From Candidatus Cloacimonadota bacterium (GTDB lineage Bacteria; Cloacimonadota; Cloacimonadia; JGIOTU-2): a DNA stretch of 64,000 nt. The stretch spans positions 1 to 64,000 of the forward strand of contig JAUWMT010000003.1 of NCBI GenBank assembly GCA_030613025.1, given 5' to 3'. Shown here in pieces: positions 7,755-36,700 of this stretch. Both the position numbers and the translations under genes were made by a program. Positions within the stretch are counted from its first letter, which is position 1. Each line of letters begins with the position of its first letter. The notes below the pieces were generated by a model. It was given only the letters and a program-made list of their open reading frames with translations, was not told where the DNA came from and ran no database searches.

Positions 7755-8366
7755 TTAATTCCTTCTGCTTAAAATATAATTGATTGCTTTAGTAAAAGCT
7801 TTAATGACTTTACCCATATTTTCCTCGAAGATAATAATTCTGATATCGTCGGATCTGCCTTTTTCGTCAGCTCTTAATTCACTAAAAACAACGTACTTTG
7901 ATTGGTTTTTTGCTTCCCTTACTTCTATACGAAAATGTTGCTTACCTGATAGTACAGATTCAGATAATAATGCTTCTTTCTTTTTATGTTCTATCTGTTT
8001 TTTATGAATCTTATAATGACAGTCCTTGCATAGCACTTGCAGATTATCAAGGTTGTCATCTTTGAAATTTGCGGGATAAGTCCTATGATGAACAACCTGT
8101 GCAGATTTCCCACATATTTCACAAGTGTTATTCGCTGTTTTCAATGCAACATTTTTTAAATCTTCCCATTTTTTTGATTTTCTATATTCTTTATATTTAT
8201 TCTGATAATTACGCCGATTTTTTATATCAGAATCAATCGGAATAAATTTTCTTATACGTGCTTTAACTCTTAGATATAATATTAATGCAGCTATTAGTAG
8301 TAAAGCACCTATTATGATGAAAAGGGCGGGCGTATTCGCTATCAAATAATTTAGAAAGTTTTCCAT
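7755..8366 (-). CDS. Membrane-anchored HNH endonuclease-like protein
   Basis: The 203-residue protein has an N-terminal membrane helix (about residues 12-33), a basic linker and an HNH domain in the middle. The domain shows CEICG (zinc Cys pair), VVHHRTYPANF (catalytic His region), NLDNLQVLCKDCH (Asn plus second Cys pair) and a final IHKK. HNH domains of this kind cut DNA; a membrane-tethered one with a C-terminal extension is typical of small accessory proteins of unknown target. The gene lies directly downstream of attI-like module B (junction at 8403) in the minus-strand array. It is AT-rich like the host. A defence role is possible but not shown. Confidence 0.75.
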   Translation of the reverse strand: MENFLNYLIANTPALFIIIGALLLIAALILYLRVKARIRKFIPIDSDIKNRRNYQNKYKEYRKSKKWEDLKNVALKTANNTCEICGKSAQVVHHRTYPANFKDDNLDNLQVLCKDCHYKIHKKQIEHKKKEALLSESVLSGKQHFRIEVREAKNQSKYVVFSELRADEKGRSDDIRIIIFEENMGKVIKAFTKAINYILSRRN

Positions 8367-10610: not shown

Positions 10611-10678
10611 ATAAAAAAGTTGCCAATAATTAGCATAGTCTTTTGCTTCATACTATCAATGTCAACGAGCAAGCAATA

Positions 10679-13600
10679 ATGAAAGAAAAATCTCCTCTAC
10701 AACGCGCACTGGACCTCTCAACCAACCGGATAGTGTCTGCATGTGCAGGCGCAGGAAAAACCTATGCGCTCTCCAAACGCTATTGCAAGATCCTTGATGA
10801 ATTTACCAGACAAAATCTGCAAAAACCAAAATCCGAATGGCTCGGTTATAAAAATATACTTGTTATCACTTTCACAAAAAAAGCTGCCGCAGAGATGTCA
10901 CGCAGAATCTATGAAGATCTACACAAGCTGCTTCAAGGAAATACAATTCAAGAACTCGAGGATCAAGGAATTTCCATAGGAGAGAATATCCGAACTGCTC
11001 CTGAGGAATATAAACGCTGGCTGCGCTCAACTTTCTCTCAAAATTATATCATGACAATCGACAGCTTCTGCGGCACCATACTTCGGGAAAATGCATTTCT
11101 ACTTGGGATCGATCCTCAATTTAAGACTTCGGACGAACTGCTTGCGAGCAAGATGTACCAGGAAACTCTTTCTGAATTTCTCACTGCCAAAAGCAGATCT
11201 TTCAATGAAGAACTGAAGAATATTCTTAATTATACTGACAAAAAGGGGTTAGAGGGATTCTTTTATTACTTTGAGAATAATAAGGTTTTTCTTGAGGAGT
11301 GGATCGATTATATACAAACTCACACCGAAAAAGAGATTTATGATCGGTGGCTCGAAAAGTACCTTCATGAGTTCGATGCGGACTCGATCCTTTCTGAATT
11401 ATCAAAGATCGCAACACTTTCTCAGACCGTGAAGCCGAATGAAGAGAATGCTTTGCAGAAACTTCATGAGCTTATCAACAGCGTTCCACAGGATTCCATT
11501 CTGGAAAAGCGACGTTATATCATGACTGAAATTCTTCCAATATTTATGACCGCAAAAAGAGAATCCTATTATTCTGATAGGGGCTTCCATTACATTCAGA
11601 AAAAATCTACTTTTATAAATGATGCTGCCTATAAAGCGTTTAAGCAGATCACCTCAGAAGTAATCTCTATTTTGGAACAGGAAATCCCTGCAGAAAAAGT
11701 TTTGCTTGCCCCATCTTCAGAAGACATCCAATCCATTGCCGTCTTTAAAGATTTCGTTTCAATCTATACAGAATTCGAAGAGAAACTCTGGAACACTCAG
11801 CTTCAGAAAAATTATCTCACTTTCAATGAAGTGATAATCAAAACCCGCAAATTGTTGAATGAGCATGATGATGTAAGGCGACGGATCGCAGAGCAGTTCA
11901 AGCATATCTTGGTTGATGAATTTCAGGATACAAATAATCTTCGTTGGGATATTATCAAATACATAGCTCAAGCAGAAAAAGGCATCATTCGAGATAAGGG
12001 GCTCTTTATCGTTGGCGACAAAAAGCAATCCATTTACAGATTCCAGCAAGCAGACGTGGAAGTGATGAATAGAGCTCAAGATGAACTTTCAGAATTTTCT
12101 GATGATACGCTTATTGAATTTAATGATAACTACAGAGCATCAAAAGAATATATCCGGCACGTGATCAATCCCATTTTTACAAATGTTTTTTCTTCTCAGG
12201 AACACTCTTTTGAAGCCACTTTTGAAGAGACAACCTATCCAGACCACAATAGCTCGGAAGCTGAAATCTCTGATAAAACACAAATCCTTTGCGACATTCA
12301 TGCCACATCTTATGAGCCCAATGAACCTGAATATGTGCCGGCACTTCATGCTGCATTCATGGCAAAGAAATATCTCCAGTGGGCTGATGGAGTTGGCATT
12401 AAAGAAGGTGCTGTAGTTGGAATCCTACTGAGGAATTTTATTCACATTAGTAAGTATTTAAGGATCTTCCAAAAATATGACCTGCCCTTCCAGATTATTG
12501 GTGAGAGAAATCTGTTTTCTCAACAGGAAGTTTATGATCTTTTCCATTTTATCAGCGTTATGATCAACCCTCATGATGATGTCGCCCTTGTTGGGCTGCT
12601 GAGAAGTCCATTCTTCTGTATGAAAGACACATTTATCTATGAATTTAAGGATCGTAAAAAAGAAAGCTCGATTTTTAACTTCATGGAAGAGGATGAAACT
12701 TTTGCATTTATCCATAATACCATTGTGGAATGGCGACAATCTGCCCAATCTATGCCCTTGGATAATTTATTACAAAATATTCTTTCCAAAGATCACAGAG
12801 AACTTGGATATGTTAGTGAAATTGGAGGTCCGCAGCGGCTGGCAAATATTGATAAGATCATCCACATCCTACATTCACTCGAACTGGACGGCATTCCGCT
12901 TCAAGAAATTCACGAATATCTTTCCTATCAATTAGACCATAAAAGCGACGTTGCACAAGCAGACATGCCATCATCGGCAAAAGTACAGATAATGACGATC
13001 CATAAGGCAAAAGGACTCGAGTTCCCGGCAGTAATTATTCCCGAACTGGATAGCACTTCTACAAAGAAAAATGCAGGTATAATATATCACAGCAGATTGT
13101 TGCCAGGAGAACAAATTGAAGTCGGTATCACAATAAAAGAGAGTTTTGAATCAATAAAGACAAACTTACTTGAGAATATTAAGAGACAGGATAAGATAGA
13201 GCAGGAAGCTGAGGATAAACGTCTTTTTTATGTTGCTGTAACACGAGCGAAGTATCGTGTGGCATTGCTTGCGGATTTCAAGGGTAATCCTAAAAAGAGT
13301 TCATGGTGGTATGAATATGTCGCCAAAACTTTTATACTTCCGAAAACTTCTATTCGAGAAGAATGGGATTCTATACAGCCACCCGAAAAAATTAGCATTT
13401 CCTGTGAAAGTGTCGAAGAAATGCTGAATGCACTGCATAAAGATGAGGATACTCAAAGCAAAAAAATGACATGGAGAGAGCTTCCTGCACGCAAGAAACC
13501 GCAGAAAATGTGGCAGGTTACCCCACATACTATCATGGAGAGTGTATTTCCAGAAATAATATTTGATAAAAAAACACCACAAAATAGTTCTAGTGTACAT

Positions 13601-16600
13601 CAGCTGGTTTCAAATCAAGACTCAAGTGCCGTATCACATAGACAATATCCGGCTAATTGTTGCGTTCCCAAGCAGGGGGTTGGGAACGAGAACACTCTTG
13701 ACTTTATACTAGCATTCGGCTCGATCTTCCATGAGGTCATTGCGAACCATTGGTGGGATTTGACCATTCACAAAGAAGATATTTTAATTTATATGGAGCG
13801 GACTTATCCTGAAATTAATTTTGAAAAGATCGAACCGCAGTTACGAATTCATTTATCCAATTTTCTCTCCAGTGACCTTTATCAATTAATAAACTCTCTC
13901 CCTTCAGACGAGATCTTTCATGAACTGCTTGTTCGGGGATGGCTGGATAATGGAGAACTCTTTCTAGAAGTAAATGGAATCTTAGATTTGCTCTATAAAG
14001 AGGGCGACAAGTGGCATATAGTTGATTTCAAGACTGATAATACCCTGCGTGCTCATCACATATATGAGATCCAGCTTCAGACTTATCAATGGATGGTAAA
14101 ACAACTCTACAACATCGATGCACAAACTTTCATTTACTATTCTTCAATTAATGAACTTCGTGAAGTGAAGTGGGAGGATGAATACTTTATTAAAATATTT
14201 CCGGGGGAACAGCACCCCTTTGCGTTCTCCAAACTTAACGATATATCAATATCAGAAAATATCTTAAGCAAACTGAGTTTTCATGATCGCATACTAATTC
14301 TTAATCCTTCCGGGTATCAATCAAAAAGGTTGATACAGGCACTAGTAAAGAGAAAACTCCTTACTCCAAATATCCAGATCACTACACTTAATAACATAAT
14401 GATGATGCTTCCTGAACAGGAAAAAAGAATATCACCAGAATGCGGCACTTTGCTCGTAAAAAAAGCTGCTGAAGAGGTTTCCCTGAATGAAGGAACGGCA
14501 GAATTACTTTCTGATGCATTTCAAAAATGTGGGCTTTGGGAGCAAAAATTTAGAGCAAGTGATGAATTTAAGAAAATTCACTCAAACTATGAACAGCTCC
14601 GCCAGGAAAAACATTACAAATATGATTTTGAAATCCCAAATAAAGATCTCGAAAATCTCTTTGAAGGAAAAACAGTTATCCTGAACGGATTCTACAAAGA
14701 AAGTCCGCTTGAATATGAAGCAGTGTCACAGATATCAAAACATACTGAGAAATTCTATTTTATTAATAATTTTGATGCTTTTAAAATAAATTCCTCTTTT
14801 GATATCACTCCAAAGATATGGAATACTGTCACACAAAAAGAGATCGAGTCCAAACCCCGCTATACTCAACAATACTCTATCGAAACTGAGATCGACTCGA
14901 TTGCCGGACAGATACACCACTTGATGAAAGATGGTCGAAACATCTCTAAAATAAAAGTGGCTGCATCCAGTATGGATGCATATCTTCCAGTGATACGGAA
15001 AATCTTTCCCTCCTATGGAATCCCCTATCACTCACTTGCGGGTAATAGATTGATCGAAAAACCTCTCACAAATTTTATGATCTCTCTGCTCACAATTATG
15101 CTCTCATCGGAAAGACTTACCTGGAATACAGTATCCTCTCTTGTGCTCCATCCTCTTTTTGATACCGTAAGGGACATTTTCGAACTCGACTCACATTTGA
15201 GAATAAATGGAATTCACTATTTTAGTGATATTACCGAGATCAAAGACATCAAAACATATTCTGAAGCTATTCATCGCATTACAGATTTGTTCAGCAATAT
15301 AAAAGATATAGCAATCAATTTATCAGGCACTTCACTTCTTGAGAGAATTGATAATTTGTTTAATGAAACTGGTATCAGCACAAAGATAGAACAGAATGAA
15401 ATCATGCAGGAATCCTATCGCTATATTCAAAAATGTATAAAAAATACTGTAAACATTTATCGTGATATTGGGCTTCAGTTCAAACCTGATAATCTTTTAA
15501 AAGATATAAAAAAAGCTCTGAAAAACCAGGAGATCCCTTCTCGAAGAGGAGAAAAAGGCATTGAGGTCCTTGGGTTCGTGGATACGCTTGAACTTAATGG
15601 TGTGATCCTTTTCATTGCCGGATTATCAGAAAACTACTTCCCTGTTCCGCAGAAAAATAATCCCTTTGCTTCATCCATTCCGGCATATAACTGGGAAAAA
15701 AGTGTGATGCTTCTCAACCATTGGCAAGAACTGGATTCTGAGCTTTACTACTCCTGCGCAGAGCGGGATATGGACGGAAATGTTCTCAATCCATCAACCC
15801 TGCTGGAAACATTTACACAAACTAATGAAATCAATGATCAAGCCACCGAACCGATCACTGCCCGCCAGCATTATCTTACATATTATGATCATATAATTGA
15901 AAACCCGATCCTGCCCGTTTTGAAGCGTCATAATGAATATCAAACCGACGCAGTTGGTTCTTACAAAGGTTTGGTGAAAACCGATGGAAAATCCACATTC
16001 GCCTTTTCTGCAAGTGATATGAACACGCTCATTCAATGCCCTATGCAGTATCTGTTCAAAGATGTACTTAATTTAAAACGGCTCTTCTATGATGAAGATG
16101 CGGAGCAAAGACTTCAACTTGGAAATGTTATTCATAAGGCGCTTGAATATTTCGGAAAAAATAACGGATTCCCAATATTAATAGAAAGCACTGCAAAAGC
16201 TCTCGATCTGCTTGCAGAATCCCTTTCCTATGCCCTTAATAAATTTCATATTGATACCGATAGAGACCTTTTCTTCAGAAGAGTATATTCACCCTATGCA
16301 GATGGACTAAGCTCTGGTAAAGATGATAATCTGCTGGTACAGCTTCTTACATTTGACAGCGATTATTTAAAAGAATATTCACCAATCAATTTTGAGCAGG
16401 TTTTCGGTATGCTGGAATCCGGAAAAGATGACACATGGACTGTTTACCCTCTCAAGAATGAAGAAGTCACACTGCACTTTCGAGGAAAGATAGATGGCAT
16501 TTTCCAAAAGAACGATCAACCTGAAATACTTGGCATAGATTACAAAACCGGCTTCAACCCCAGTCCTACCGAGATCGAAAATTTCTGGGATATTCAACCG

Positions 16601-16948
16601 TTCTTATACATTCTTGTCATGAAATCACATTTTCCAGAAAGCAAGATCGCATTTCTCTACGAATCATTAAAAGACATTGCAAAATCAAAGGACAAGCAGC
16701 TTACTTTATATGAAGATAATGAGCTATTCATTATCACTCAGAAAAAAACAATGCTCAGTCAATCCAAAGAAGCCACAAAGAATCTCCTTCTTCATTATGG
16801 AACAAAAGCGACGAAAGGTGAGTTTCATATTCGGGAAAGGGAGTATGGCAGCAAACCATGCAGCTATTGCGATTTCAAACGACTCTGCCGAAAAGATTGC
16901 TTCCCTTCTCAAATAAAAGACCTCCTTCAAATCACAGAAAATATCTAA
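10679..16948 (+). CDS. Fused AddA-AddB-type helicase-nuclease
   Basis: The frame opens at TTG 10643, but I prefer ATG 10679 because the conserved part begins there; length is then 2089 residues. The first half is AddA-like UvrD helicase: ACAGAGKT (about 21-28), TFTKKAAAEM, DEFQDTNNLRW, GDKKQSIYRFQQAD, NYRAS, MTIHKAKGLEFP and FYVAVTRAK, then a PD-(D/E)XK nuclease (EVNGILDLLY, HIVDFKTDN, QLQTYQW; about 1095-1140). From about residue 1200 a second, AddB/RexB-like part starts (LILNPSGYQSKRL). It ends in another nuclease (GKIDGIF, GIDYKTG) with iron-sulphur cysteines: one in IQCPMQY (about 1787) and three in CSYCDFKRLC (about 2060). AddA and AddB are normally separate subunits that process double-strand breaks for RecA. 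A single chain would tie both nucleases in a fixed 1:1 ratio. No recC-like or separate addB gene is adjacent. Confidence 0.8.
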   Translation: MKEKSPLQRALDLSTNRIVSACAGAGKTYALSKRYCKILDEFTRQNLQKPKSEWLGYKNILVITFTKKAAAEMSRRIYEDLHKLLQGNTIQELEDQGISIGENIRTAPEEYKRWLRSTFSQNYIMTIDSFCGTILRENAFLLGIDPQFKTSDELLASKMYQETLSEFLTAKSRSFNEELKNILNYTDKKGLEGFFYYFENNKVFLEEWIDYIQTHTEKEIYDRWLEKYLHEFDADSILSELSKIATLSQTVKPNEENALQKLHELINSVPQDSILEKRRYIMTEILPIFMTAKRESYYSDRGFHYIQKKSTFINDAAYKAFKQITSEVISILEQEIPAEKVLLAPSSEDIQSIAVFKDFVSIYTEFEEKLWNTQLQKNYLTFNEVIIKTRKLLNEHDDVRRRIAEQFKHILVDEFQDTNNLRWDIIKYIAQAEKGIIRDKGLFIVGDKKQSIYRFQQADVEVMNRAQDELSEFSDDTLIEFNDNYRASKEYIRHVINPIFTNVFSSQEHSFEATFEETTYPDHNSSEAEISDKTQILCDIHATSYEPNEPEYVPALHAAFMAKKYLQWADGVGIKEGAVVGILLRNFIHISKYLRIFQKYDLPFQIIGERNLFSQQEVYDLFHFISVMINPHDDVALVGLLRSPFFCMKDTFIYEFKDRKKESSIFNFMEEDETFAFIHNTIVEWRQSAQSMPLDNLLQNILSKDHRELGYVSEIGGPQRLANIDKIIHILHSLELDGIPLQEIHEYLSYQLDHKSDVAQADMPSSAKVQIMTIHKAKGLEFPAVIIPELDSTSTKKNAGIIYHSRLLPGEQIEVGITIKESFESIKTNLLENIKRQDKIEQEAEDKRLFYVAVTRAKYRVALLADFKGNPKKSSWWYEYVAKTFILPKTSIREEWDSIQPPEKISISCESVEEMLNALHKDEDTQSKKMTWRELPARKKPQKMWQVTPHTIMESVFPEIIFDKKTPQNSSSVHQLVSNQDSSAVSHRQYPANCCVPKQGVGNENTLDFILAFGSIFHEVIANHWWDLTIHKEDILIYMERTYPEINFEKIEPQLRIHLSNFLSSDLYQLINSLPSDEIFHELLVRGWLDNGELFLEVNGILDLLYKEGDKWHIVDFKTDNTLRAHHIYEIQLQTYQWMVKQLYNIDAQTFIYYSSINELREVKWEDEYFIKIFPGEQHPFAFSKLNDISISENILSKLSFHDRILILNPSGYQSKRLIQALVKRKLLTPNIQITTLNNIMMMLPEQEKRISPECGTLLVKKAAEEVSLNEGTAELLSDAFQKCGLWEQKFRASDEFKKIHSNYEQLRQEKHYKYDFEIPNKDLENLFEGKTVILNGFYKESPLEYEAVSQISKHTEKFYFINNFDAFKINSSFDITPKIWNTVTQKEIESKPRYTQQYSIETEIDSIAGQIHHLMKDGRNISKIKVAASSMDAYLPVIRKIFPSYGIPYHSLAGNRLIEKPLTNFMISLLTIMLSSERLTWNTVSSLVLHPLFDTVRDIFELDSHLRINGIHYFSDITEIKDIKTYSEAIHRITDLFSNIKDIAINLSGTSLLERIDNLFNETGISTKIEQNEIMQESYRYIQKCIKNTVNIYRDIGLQFKPDNLLKDIKKALKNQEIPSRRGEKGIEVLGFVDTLELNGVILFIAGLSENYFPVPQKNNPFASSIPAYNWEKSVMLLNHWQELDSELYYSCAERDMDGNVLNPSTLLETFTQTNEINDQATEPITARQHYLTYYDHIIENPILPVLKRHNEYQTDAVGSYKGLVKTDGKSTFAFSASDMNTLIQCPMQYLFKDVLNLKRLFYDEDAEQRLQLGNVIHKALEYFGKNNGFPILIESTAKALDLLAESLSYALNKFHIDTDRDLFFRRVYSPYADGLSSGKDDNLLVQLLTFDSDYLKEYSPINFEQVFGMLESGKDDTWTVYPLKNEEVTLHFRGKIDGIFQKNDQPEILGIDYKTGFNPSPTEIENFWDIQPFLYILVMKSHFPESKIAFLYESLKDIAKSKDKQLTLYEDNELFIITQKKTMLSQSKEATKNLLLHYGTKATKGEFHIREREYGSKPCSYCDFKRLCRKDCFPSQIKDLLQITENI
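13663..13690. repeat. Palindromic repeat inserted in frame in the addAB-like gene
   Basis: The sequence CGTTCCCAAGCAGGGGG followed by TTGGGAACGAG is a short palindromic repeat. A sister copy with the same arms lies between genes at 32249-32277. Inside the gene it adds about ten residues (CVPKQGVGNE) in the low-complexity linker between helicase and first nuclease without breaking the frame, much as Rickettsia palindromic elements do. Confidence 0.75.
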
Positions 16949-32169: not shown

Positions 32170-32354
32170 ATTTCCTTCTCCTCCCAGTAGAGGGCTGGGG
32201 TGAGGTAAAATAAAAAAAGGGGCTGAATATATTCAGCCCCGATATGAGCGTCCCCAACGAGGGCGTTGGGAACGAGAAGTAAAAACCGTCAGGAATTTCT
32301 CCCTGACGGCTCTTGAATATTTAACTTTGCGAAAGTGAAAAACTTTCGCAAAGG
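32170..32354. repeat. Cluster of four palindromic repeats and terminators
   Basis: Within 185 bases lie GGGGCTGAATATATTCAGCCCC (32219-32240), the CCCCAACGAGGGCGTTGGGAA repeat (32249-32277) that also occurs inside the addAB-like gene, CCGTCAGG...CCTGACGG (32287-32310) and CTTTGCGAAAG...CTTTCGCAAAG (32326-32354). The last two lie just behind the stop of the following minus-strand gene and probably terminate it. No gene is seen in 32072-32364. Confidence 0.7.
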
Positions 32355-33790: not shown

Positions 33791-36700
33791 TCATTTTCTC
33801 AATAAATATTCTTGTGTTCCAATTTTATAAAAATAAATTCCTGAACGAACTTCCTTTCCTTTTTCATCTTTGCAATCCCAAATAATTTCATGAATTTTTA
33901 ACTTTGAATTTTTAATTTTTAATTTTTTCACAAGTTGACCTTTTACATTATAAATACTAATTTGGGATAATTCGAGTGAATTCGTGGTTGCAAAAAAGTG
34001 TATTGTTGTTGAAGTTTTGAAGGGATTTGGATAGTTCCAGGTTTCTAATCCTACATTATTATTCTGGGGGTGAATTGAGACGATAGGAATTTGGTAGGTG
34101 AAGTATTCATCAAAACCGATGTTGCCATCTACGTTTCCTGAGGGAAGTTGCCCAACCAAAGTTCCACTATCACTGGTTTCATATTCACCAATTGCGATAA
34201 AGAAGCTGTCCACTTCTCCAAGCTCAGAATCAATCGAGAAATATCCTTCGAGTACAGTATTGAGTGCTGCTCCAGTAGTTCCTTCATTATCAAACCATGC
34301 ATGGTAGCCGTTCGAACCTTCCTGGGCAAGAAATAGATCCCACTGGGCTACCTGTCCTGCTTTTGCCCACGGTGCTGCGGTCATTTGTGTAAGTTCACTG
34401 GAAATGAGCATAAACAGATCAGTTGTACTTCCTGCAGGGGTGCATGCAACGTAGCACCAATCTTCATCAACTGCTGCCCAGAGCTCGATTTCTGAGGAAA
34501 AAGCAACAAGCTCTGCCTGAGCATCGACAACGCCGTTCATAATAAAAGGAACACTTGCTCCTTGCACCTGCACATGCCAGTCCTGCCCATTGTTATTATC
34601 CCAGTTGCCCTGTCCGTCATGGAAACAGAAATCAACTACTGTAGTACCGCTTTCAATTGTGAAGGTAAACACCCAAACTGAATCCTGCGCATTGAAGGTC
34701 ATTGCAAAATCATCCACATTCTGCCAGCAATTCATACCTTTATGAATTTGTAATTGAGTCACATCATACAAAGGTCCTTCCGCTCCATAGGTAATGTTGA
34801 GCTCATCTCCGACTTCCGACTCTTCCGGACTCCACTGTACATAGTCCTGCACAGAGACACCGCCTGAACCAACATATACATGCTGGATCGGAGACTTCTT
34901 CACATTGCTATGGTTGTCTTCAGCTTGGACATAATAATCAATCAAACAGTCTGAATACCCTGCAATTTCTGCATAGTATTCATCAGCAATATAGTCCGGA
35001 AGTACAAAGAAATCAATTGCAGGATTGCCTGTTACATTACCTGTGGGAAAATCTCTCACAGACATTATTATTGAATTCCACGAGCCCACTTCCGAACCGC
35101 CTGCATAGGTTTCATTATCATAAGAAGTTAGAGAATTTTCTCCGTCATTATCAATACGGAATTTTAATTCAACTGATGAGAGTCCGGACACATCATACAC
35201 AAAAGTCCATACATGGAAATCGCTTGAATTTTGATGAGTTTGATAGCCATATATCGGACCAAAACCTTCTCCGCCGGGATTGTAAGGAAATCTTTGAGGA
35301 ATGAAAATTGTGGGTGCAACATCGTCTTCACCCGGATTGGCATCAATTTCATAATCTGCATACTCTACTGCGTTGTTGCATGCAATGGTCTGCTTCACTT
35401 CCATATCCAGCGAAGTGCCGTAATACATATATCCACTTGTAAGAGAAGGCAGGAAGAAATGCCATGCCAGTTCTGCATTATTTGCACTTGCATTCGGATA
35501 CACGATCTTGCTAATATCAACTGAGCCAATTAGCTCTTCTGCTGTTTCCACCCTGTTCTGAGCCGCGGTTATCACTGCCCAATTGCGCACATCCTCGGTC
35601 CAACCATAAGGATCGAACCGATAATTTCCATTATACATAGGCCATATCCAGTTTATGAACTGCGGATGCCCCCAATCATTGGCGGCGTTCACCCAGCTTC
35701 CGTCTTCCACATGCACGATGTCGTTTGAAGGAACGGGATTGTTATCAAGAAATTGCTGAACTGTCGAGGGAATGTATCCCTGCGATGCTGCTGCGTTTGC
35801 AAAATTCGGCACTGAATTCATATAGTAATCGTATCCGCCACCCCATGCATTATCGCCGTCATGTGCAAGGAGTACGATGCTCGGATGTGAAGGGTCATTA
35901 TAGGGTGCAATATGAGAATCGATCTCGCCGGTTCCCATTGAAGAATAGCCGTTCATATAGCTGAGAAGATCGCACATAGGCACGACATTGATAGTATATA
36001 CCTGTTCGGTTTCAGGATCGACATACTGAGCTTTGTGTGCCTGATAACAGAATGGTGCAGCAAAAGTGCCACCTCTGCCATCGATCTGACCACTCCACCA
36101 ATTGCTTCCGACAGGTCCGAGAATATCTGCCGGATTGGGTGGATCAATATTACATCCCGAAGTTCCATAACTAAGCGGGTAATCCTGGCAAGTCCGTGCA
36201 AGATGGCTGTTCGCGATAACCGACCATTCGAGTCCTTCCTCCGCAAGCGTTTGAATAATTCTCTCAGAGAAAGAGCATTCTGCAGGCCAGAATCCTTTTG
36301 AATATACCGGGTCATTTCCGAAGAATTGTGAGTAAATATAGCGGTGAGCTTGAATTTCTTTATGCAGTGCGTTCTCATCGATGAGCGGTGCAAGTGCATG
36401 ATGAAAGGTGAAGGCAGTAATATCCATTCGAGGATTCCCGCCTGATGTCTGCCATGAACGAGCAGTCTGGAAATTGCCCTGCCATCCGGAGTTGTATCCC
36501 CATTGGACGGCTTCTGCCAAACTTTGCACATTTTCAATAAGGCAGCCGGAATAGTTCACTTGTGCTCCTGCGTCTGCATGGACGAGGAGGGTTTGCACTG
36601 CGTCTTTTGGGCGCCATTGATACGCGGCAACTCTGTCATCCTTGTTGAATATATCCTCAAGATCATTCAAGGGATGCTGAAGCCCGTCGGAATACCAGTT

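Follow-up and report, generated by a model that had tools for sequence, protein, structure and literature searches.

AddA- and AddB-type halves joined in one reading frame in a lineage of Cloacimonadota

We describe a gene that encodes both halves of the AddAB helicase-nuclease in one chain. It lies on the plus strand of a 64,000-nucleotide stretch of DNA from a Candidatus Cloacimonadota bacterium (contig JAUWMT010000003.1, positions 1 to 64,000; hereafter called the window), and its product of 2089 residues is very probably a true single-chain AddAB, with AddA first and AddB second, most likely working as AddAB does. The enzyme itself is known, and the joining of AddA and AddB is what is unusual. 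No description of a fused AddAB turned up in the titles and abstract openings that our literature search covered, a scope that takes in few subscription papers and does not establish absence from print. The words “fuse”, “fused” and “fusion” were not found in PMC1193525, nor AddA or RecB in PMC8542988, on Candidatus Celaenobacter. The genome that contains the window comprises 2.83 Mb in 98 contigs, and its source organism is near Candidatus Celaenobacter antarcticus, of the phylum Cloacimonadota.

One open frame with two nucleases

The first-pass annotation of the window had proposed a single uninterrupted frame of 2089 residues that joins AddA and AddB. Both parts of the proposal hold: there is no internal stop in 10679-16948, and the chain is matched by profile to both Bacillus subtilis subunits. 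The open frame begins at the first TTG, spanning 10643-16948, and the ATG at 10679 aligns with the start of the close relatives. The gene encodes, in order, the AddA helicase, the AddA nuclease, a degenerate AddB helicase-like region and the AddB nuclease with four iron-sulphur cysteines, as follows.

10679..16948, plus strand: fused addA-addB gene, 2089 amino acids, ATG start, TAA stop, without internal stop
10709..12085, plus strand: UvrD/superfamily 1A (SF1A) helicase N-terminal region, residues 11-469; Pfam UvrD-helicase, 1.5e-44; Walker A GAGKT, DEFQDT
12113..13264, plus strand: UvrD_C region, residues 479-862; Pfam, 1.8e-38; motifs TIHKAKGLEF and LFYVAVTRAK
13694..14146, plus strand: first PD-(D/E)XK nuclease, AddA type; D1103, D1116, K1118; from the PDDEXK_1 search of the own genome
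14186..14278, plus strand: junction of the AddA-like and AddB-like parts; stop-free, with purifying selection across it
14246..16003, plus strand: AddB/RexB-like part, degenerate helicase-like region without Walker A
16004..16891, plus strand: second PD-(D/E)XK nuclease, AddB type, Pfam PF12705; D1939, D1954, K1956
16037..16039, plus strand: first iron-sulphur cysteine, C1787; from invariance in the chains and the B. subtilis AddB alignment
16859..16888, plus strand: CxxCxxxxxC cluster CSYCDFKRLC with C2061, C2064 and C2070; from the same two sources

In the AddA half, the helicase motifs were located by string at residues 21 (Walker A, ACAGAGKT), 413 (DEFQDT), 446 (GDKKQSIYRF), 771 (IMTIHKAKGLEF) and 849 (LFYVAVTRAK). 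Positions 17-876 of A1, the profile built from nine fused chains, align with B. subtilis AddA (3u44_A) at 1.1e-67. This half thereby combines the SF1A helicase motifs with the C-terminal PD-(D/E)XK nuclease that characterize AddA, and the Pfam matches, motif strings and invariant residues confirm the UvrD motifs and first nuclease of the first-pass annotation. Pfam PDDEXK_1 matches the chain in two stretches, the better at residues 1776-2071, and no further match to this family was found in the own genome at 1e-3. The D...D-x-K sets of both nucleases are invariant in 9/9 fused chains.

The AddB half is likewise identified by profile. A1 matches B. subtilis AddB (3u44_B) at 5.6e-17 over profile positions 1351-2040, and A5, a profile of the nine AddB halves and the separate AddB of one relative (G107), matches it at 1.9e-23 as the top among five hits. 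In the A5 alignment the four cysteines fall in register with the corresponding B. subtilis AddB motifs, CP and CxxCxxxxxC, and C1787, C2061, C2064 and C2070 are all invariant in the nine fused chains. The degenerate helicase-like region, the PD-(D/E)XK nuclease and the four cysteines around it, all expected of an AddB, are thus present, and the annotated AddB/RexB-like half with a second nuclease and four iron-sulphur cysteines stands. No Walker A motif was found in this half; the sole one sits in the AddA half.

The joined frame in independent genomes

We searched 124 Cloacimonadota genomes with the window protein and the A1 profile, and then read the loci. The fused AddAB lineage is present in 16 of them. 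The whole chain lies in one frame in nine genomes, including that of the window (G000, G108, G110, G111, G112, G113, G116, G120 and G092; the G113 chain, which meets a contig end, lacks roughly its first ten residues), and frames on cut contigs cross the junction in five more (G109, G114, G115, G117 and G069). G118, whose contig begins inside the AddB half, falls outside the assessable set. These independent assemblies exclude the assembly join that the first-pass annotation had considered. Its other concern, that relatives might have two genes, is contradicted by 14 of the 15 assessable lineage genomes and borne out by the remaining one, G107, which nests inside the fused clade. The public metagenome-assembled genome (MAG) of Ca. 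Celaenobacter antarcticus (contig JAVCDK010000102.1) encodes a chain of 2053 residues, 75% identical to the window chain in the best segment, and its gene is identical to that of G108.

Moreover, the junction is under purifying selection. Compared with G111, the nonsynonymous and synonymous divergences (dN/dS) are 0.073/0.592 in the A part, 0.056/0.273 in the B part and 0.091/0.659 in the 100 codons over the junction, which correspond to ratios of about 0.12, 0.21 and 0.14, derived from separately computed dN and dS. Compared with G108, the junction gives 0.181/0.899, a ratio of about 0.20.

Several observations weigh against the reading of the chain as a single-chain AddAB. No significant alignment was obtained for the roughly 300 N-terminal residues of B. 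subtilis AddB, the part in which the Chi scanner starts, and the residue R629, named as part of the ionic latch of AddAB in PMC4824097, is a tyrosine in the window chain, according to a single low-confidence alignment column. The best score against the NCBIfam addA and addB models is 256.5, compared with a curated cut-off of 860.75; these equivalog models span narrower clades, so that the cut-off is not a defining bar for AddAB, and scores so far below it mark the window AddAB as a diverged branch. AlphaFold models were too poor to use, with a mean pLDDT (predicted local distance difference test) of 29.7 for residues 1-1189 (with L003) and 30.9 for residues 953-2089 (with L003 and L004), most likely because too few sequences entered the alignment. 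In G107, the only split case among the 15 assessable genomes, addA and addB are separate genes, and the chain could be cut after translation.

Distribution within the phylum

The fused lineage is found in 13 of the 17 genomes of family f1. Among the others of this family, G122 and G123 carry the common split AddAB of the phylum (type I), and G119 (59% complete) matched neither type. G121 (99% complete) was matched by neither PDDEXK_1 nor, at 1e-30, the type I AddA profile. Although G092 and G069 are from a different family of the class, the AddA tree places both with genus g1, and the AddB tree does the same for G092; this placement suggests horizontal transfer of the fused gene. The fusion is old in the Cloacimonadota lineage.

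How is the fused lineage related to the type I enzyme? A2, a profile of four split AddAs used at a threshold of 1e-30, matches 101 of the 124 genomes, five of them (G000, G110, G111, G112 and G092) through the fused chain alone, which leaves 96 type I genomes. None of these 96 is among the 16 fused-lineage genomes, and 12 of the 124 have neither type at the thresholds used. That the two types never co-occur is expected if both do the same job, and the fused lineage replaces the usual AddAB of the phylum. Two mutually exclusive AddAB types in one phylum make a clear case of the replacement of a core repair enzyme. In the four type I loci read, addB is followed by addA in overlapping frames, the upstream proteins being called AddB by position and size. 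No cysteine is invariant among these four AddBs, none of them has the CxxCxxxxxC motif, and the one scanned (L049) had no NCBIfam match. G086, counted as type I, has an additional AddA preceded by an AddB end.

History of the A-B fusion

The split genes of G107 bear directly on how the A-B chain arose. In the maximum-likelihood AddA and AddB trees, G107 branches within the fused clade, as the sister of the fused g2-g4 chains, with supports of 100/99 and 98/97 in the first pair of trees and 100/99 and 99/99 in the second. A single clade of A-B chains without G107 is rejected by the approximately unbiased (AU) test (p-AU 0.007 and 0.006, with long branches among the outgroups). At the G107 locus (L043), the addA stop codon occupies 7899-7901, the addB ATG lies at 7846, and the junction spans 7845-7930, of which 7853-7930 is composed of short repeats that recur in the G107 genome (73 matches). 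Given the place of G107 within the fused clade and a junction filled with dispersed repeats, the split may be a fission of a fused gene, possibly made by the repeats; a frame error in the G107 MAG is another possible source.

The trees can also be read as two independent A-B fusions, one in genus g1 with the f12 members and one in genera g2-g4, from a split ancestor that resembled G107. We regard this as a serious contender, if not the favoured account: both trees place G107 beside the g2-g4 chains as their sister, which agrees with two fusions, as does the rejection of an A-B clade without it; the linker lengths differ between the two subclades; and two changes are needed in either scenario. 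However, dispersed repeats cover the end of the G107 addA together with the stop codon and most of the gap between the two genes, a pattern that fits breakage by inserted repeats. In addition, the other split pairs read (G086, G293, G307, the four type I loci and Halobiforma) are all in the order addB-addA, and therefore the A-B order itself looks derived. One fusion followed by fission in G107 remains, if narrowly, the account that we prefer.

Single chains in the opposite order

Next, we searched 386 genomes, including other phyla, with A5 and a broad AddA profile, and at least 245 genomes matched the latter. Among the matches listed, long frames outside Cloacimonadota occur in G319 (2000 residues), G279 (2125) and G298 (2556). 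The G298 frame at the AddA match was rejected as a fusion, since the AddB match of this genome is carried by a second frame that overlaps the first. Single chains with AddB ahead of AddA thus occur in at least two lineages outside the phylum, G319 and the class of G279.

The single frame of G319 comprises AddB (residues 4-923) and AddA (943-1995) with the iron-sulphur motif CAYCDFKKIC, and it scores 1.5e-110 and 5.1e-49 with profiles that exclude its own sequence; later wide AddA and AddB profiles included G319, and its strong scores there arise partly by construction. G319 is the sole match among 9 genomes of its phylum. The AddA tree pairs it with the Cloacimonadota lineage as sister (97/96), and the AddB tree does so with weak support (72/80). 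A plasmid-borne haloarchaeal relative, from Halobiforma, has two genes, addB-addA.

In the class of G279, 5 of 45 genomes match the G279 chain at 1e-40, with frames of 2125, 2042, 1826, 1941 and 1559 residues. Four chains were read (G279, G396, G395 and G398; the frame of 1559 belongs to G400, outside the read set), and AddB precedes AddA in all four, G279 included. The AddA match of G279, G396 and G395 does not extend past the helicase, beyond which 49, 44 and 32 residues follow, so the AddA nuclease seems to be lost. The CxxCxxxxxC motif is absent from G396 and G395, two of these three chains. Their sequences suggest that the AddB-AddA chains at L180, L181 and L182, in this class, are single-nuclease enzymes.

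These chains allow a broader but tentative reading, to which we give limited weight: AddAB may have been made single-chain repeatedly and in both orders, the A-B chain may have arisen from a fused B-A ancestor by circular permutation, and fission can undo the fusion. The permutation is considered because the nearest AddA outside the phylum sits in a B-A chain, that of G319. It could have proceeded by tandem duplication of a fused B-A gene, followed by loss of the outer halves. If so, the boundary between the subunits would be fluid in evolution, and the enzyme would tolerate being connected either way.

Other explanations of the chain

Fusions of a defence-type SF1 helicase with a Cas4-like nuclease exist (PMC5704561), and the chain could in principle be such a defence or plasmid enzyme rather than the AddAB of the cell. 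We consider this improbable. Both an AddA-type and an AddB-type half are present, the best Protein Data Bank match of the latter being AddB itself; 13 of the 17 family f1 genomes carry the chain, never alongside the type I AddAB; and no plasmid (0/72,556) or phage (0/50,697) record has a place that covers 80%, in searches that would overlook fusions with a diverged AddB half. Viral contigs gave helicase hits alone, without long coverage.

It is similarly doubtful that the translated chain is cleaved into its two halves to work as an ordinary AddA-AddB heterodimer. The junction is short and variable between the subclades, and G107 functions with two genes; against this, the junction columns contain no conserved cleavage motif by eye. 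Finally, the notion that the joined frame is an artefact of merging two genes, which a metagenome-type assembly in 98 contigs might invite, is so improbable as to be refuted in practice by the independent assemblies: the joined frame recurs in genomes both within the family and outside it, five of which cross the junction on cut contigs, the named Ca. Celaenobacter MAG has its 2053-residue chain, and selection acts across the junction.

An in-frame insert with a palindrome

The window chain exceeds that of G108 by 36 residues, most of them contributed by an insert located between helicase and first nuclease.

13607..13711, plus strand: in-frame insert of about 35 residues at the helicase/first-nuclease boundary; limits approximate, from alignment
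13664..13687, plus strand: palindrome GTTCCCAAGCAGGGGGTTGGGAAC in the insert, one copy of a dispersed repeat

The insert is missing from 8 other fused chains aligned in A1 and is present in G114 with a longer hairpin loop. GTTCCCAAGCAGGGGGTTGGGAAC has 37 copies in the genome at one mismatch or fewer, compared with 0 for a reversed control pattern, and the flanks of the insert recur partly, with 80% identity over 98 bases at one other place. The insert strand folds far better than its shuffles (z -7). The fused gene has thus accommodated a repeat inserted in frame at the boundary between two domains, and the insert resembles palindromic elements inserted into coding genes. An imperfect second copy of the palindrome lies at 32250-32273 of the window, in which Tandem Repeats Finder detected only one array, a short one, at 33893-33927.

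Elsewhere in the genome, on contig C20, a protein of 1073 residues (L080, 3338-6559) apparently has a PHP-like N-terminal part and a UvrD-like helicase, as judged by eye, and frames of similar size with matching helicase hits exist in relatives. It was ruled out as a copy of the fused chain, being a different protein.

Proposed mechanism and comparison with known systems

According to PMC4824097, AddAB has one SF1A motor and two nucleases, one per strand; AddA cuts the 3′ strand and AddB the 5′ strand, and Chi is held in the AddB helicase-like domain. By analogy, the window chain would perform AddAB-type end resection. The AddA half would load on a DNA end and move 3′-5′ by ATP hydrolysis, while the AddB half, without an ATP motor of its own, would guide and scan the 3′ strand. 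The AddA nuclease would then cut the 3′ strand and the iron-sulphur AddB nuclease the 5′ strand, and the two cuts would leave a 3′ overhang for RecA. The strand assignment, the direction, the Chi response and the one-to-one arrangement in the folded chain are modelled on B. subtilis AddAB.

The stoichiometry of the two halves is predicted to be fixed, as follows from a single chain. A natural AddAB of this kind, with its halves held one to one, offers a single-gene construct for biochemistry and cryo-electron microscopy. Furthermore, fusions in both orders limit how the subunits can be placed and which termini can be joined.

B. subtilis AddAB (PDB 3u44, 3u4q and 4ceh-4cej) has, like the window chain, an AddA-type SF1A motor with a nuclease and an AddB-type helicase-like half with an iron-sulphur nuclease of identical cysteine pattern. 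The window enzyme differs in being one chain instead of two, with AddA first, and its AddB half is shorter, lacks Walker A and has an unalignable N-terminal part. We take the two separate subunits of AddAB as a variant feature, which the window chain lacks without being barred from membership. The UvrD-Cas4 defence fusions consist of a single SF1 helicase and a Cas4-like nuclease (PMC5704561) and, unlike the window chain, have no AddB helicase-like region.

The type I AddAB of Cloacimonadota has the same two-part design but is encoded by two genes in reverse order, without CxxCxxxxxC in the four checked. The AddB-AddA chains of G319 and the class of G279 hold both halves in one frame, as the window chain does, but in the reverse order. 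RecBCD and AdnAB are likewise SF1 helicase-nucleases that resect breaks. In comparison with RecBCD, the window chain has no RecD-type motor (12 bits with the recD model), and its second half keeps the nuclease D-D-K, unlike RecC. Whereas AdnAB has a motor and a nuclease in both subunits, the window chain has one Walker A motif and a motorless second half.

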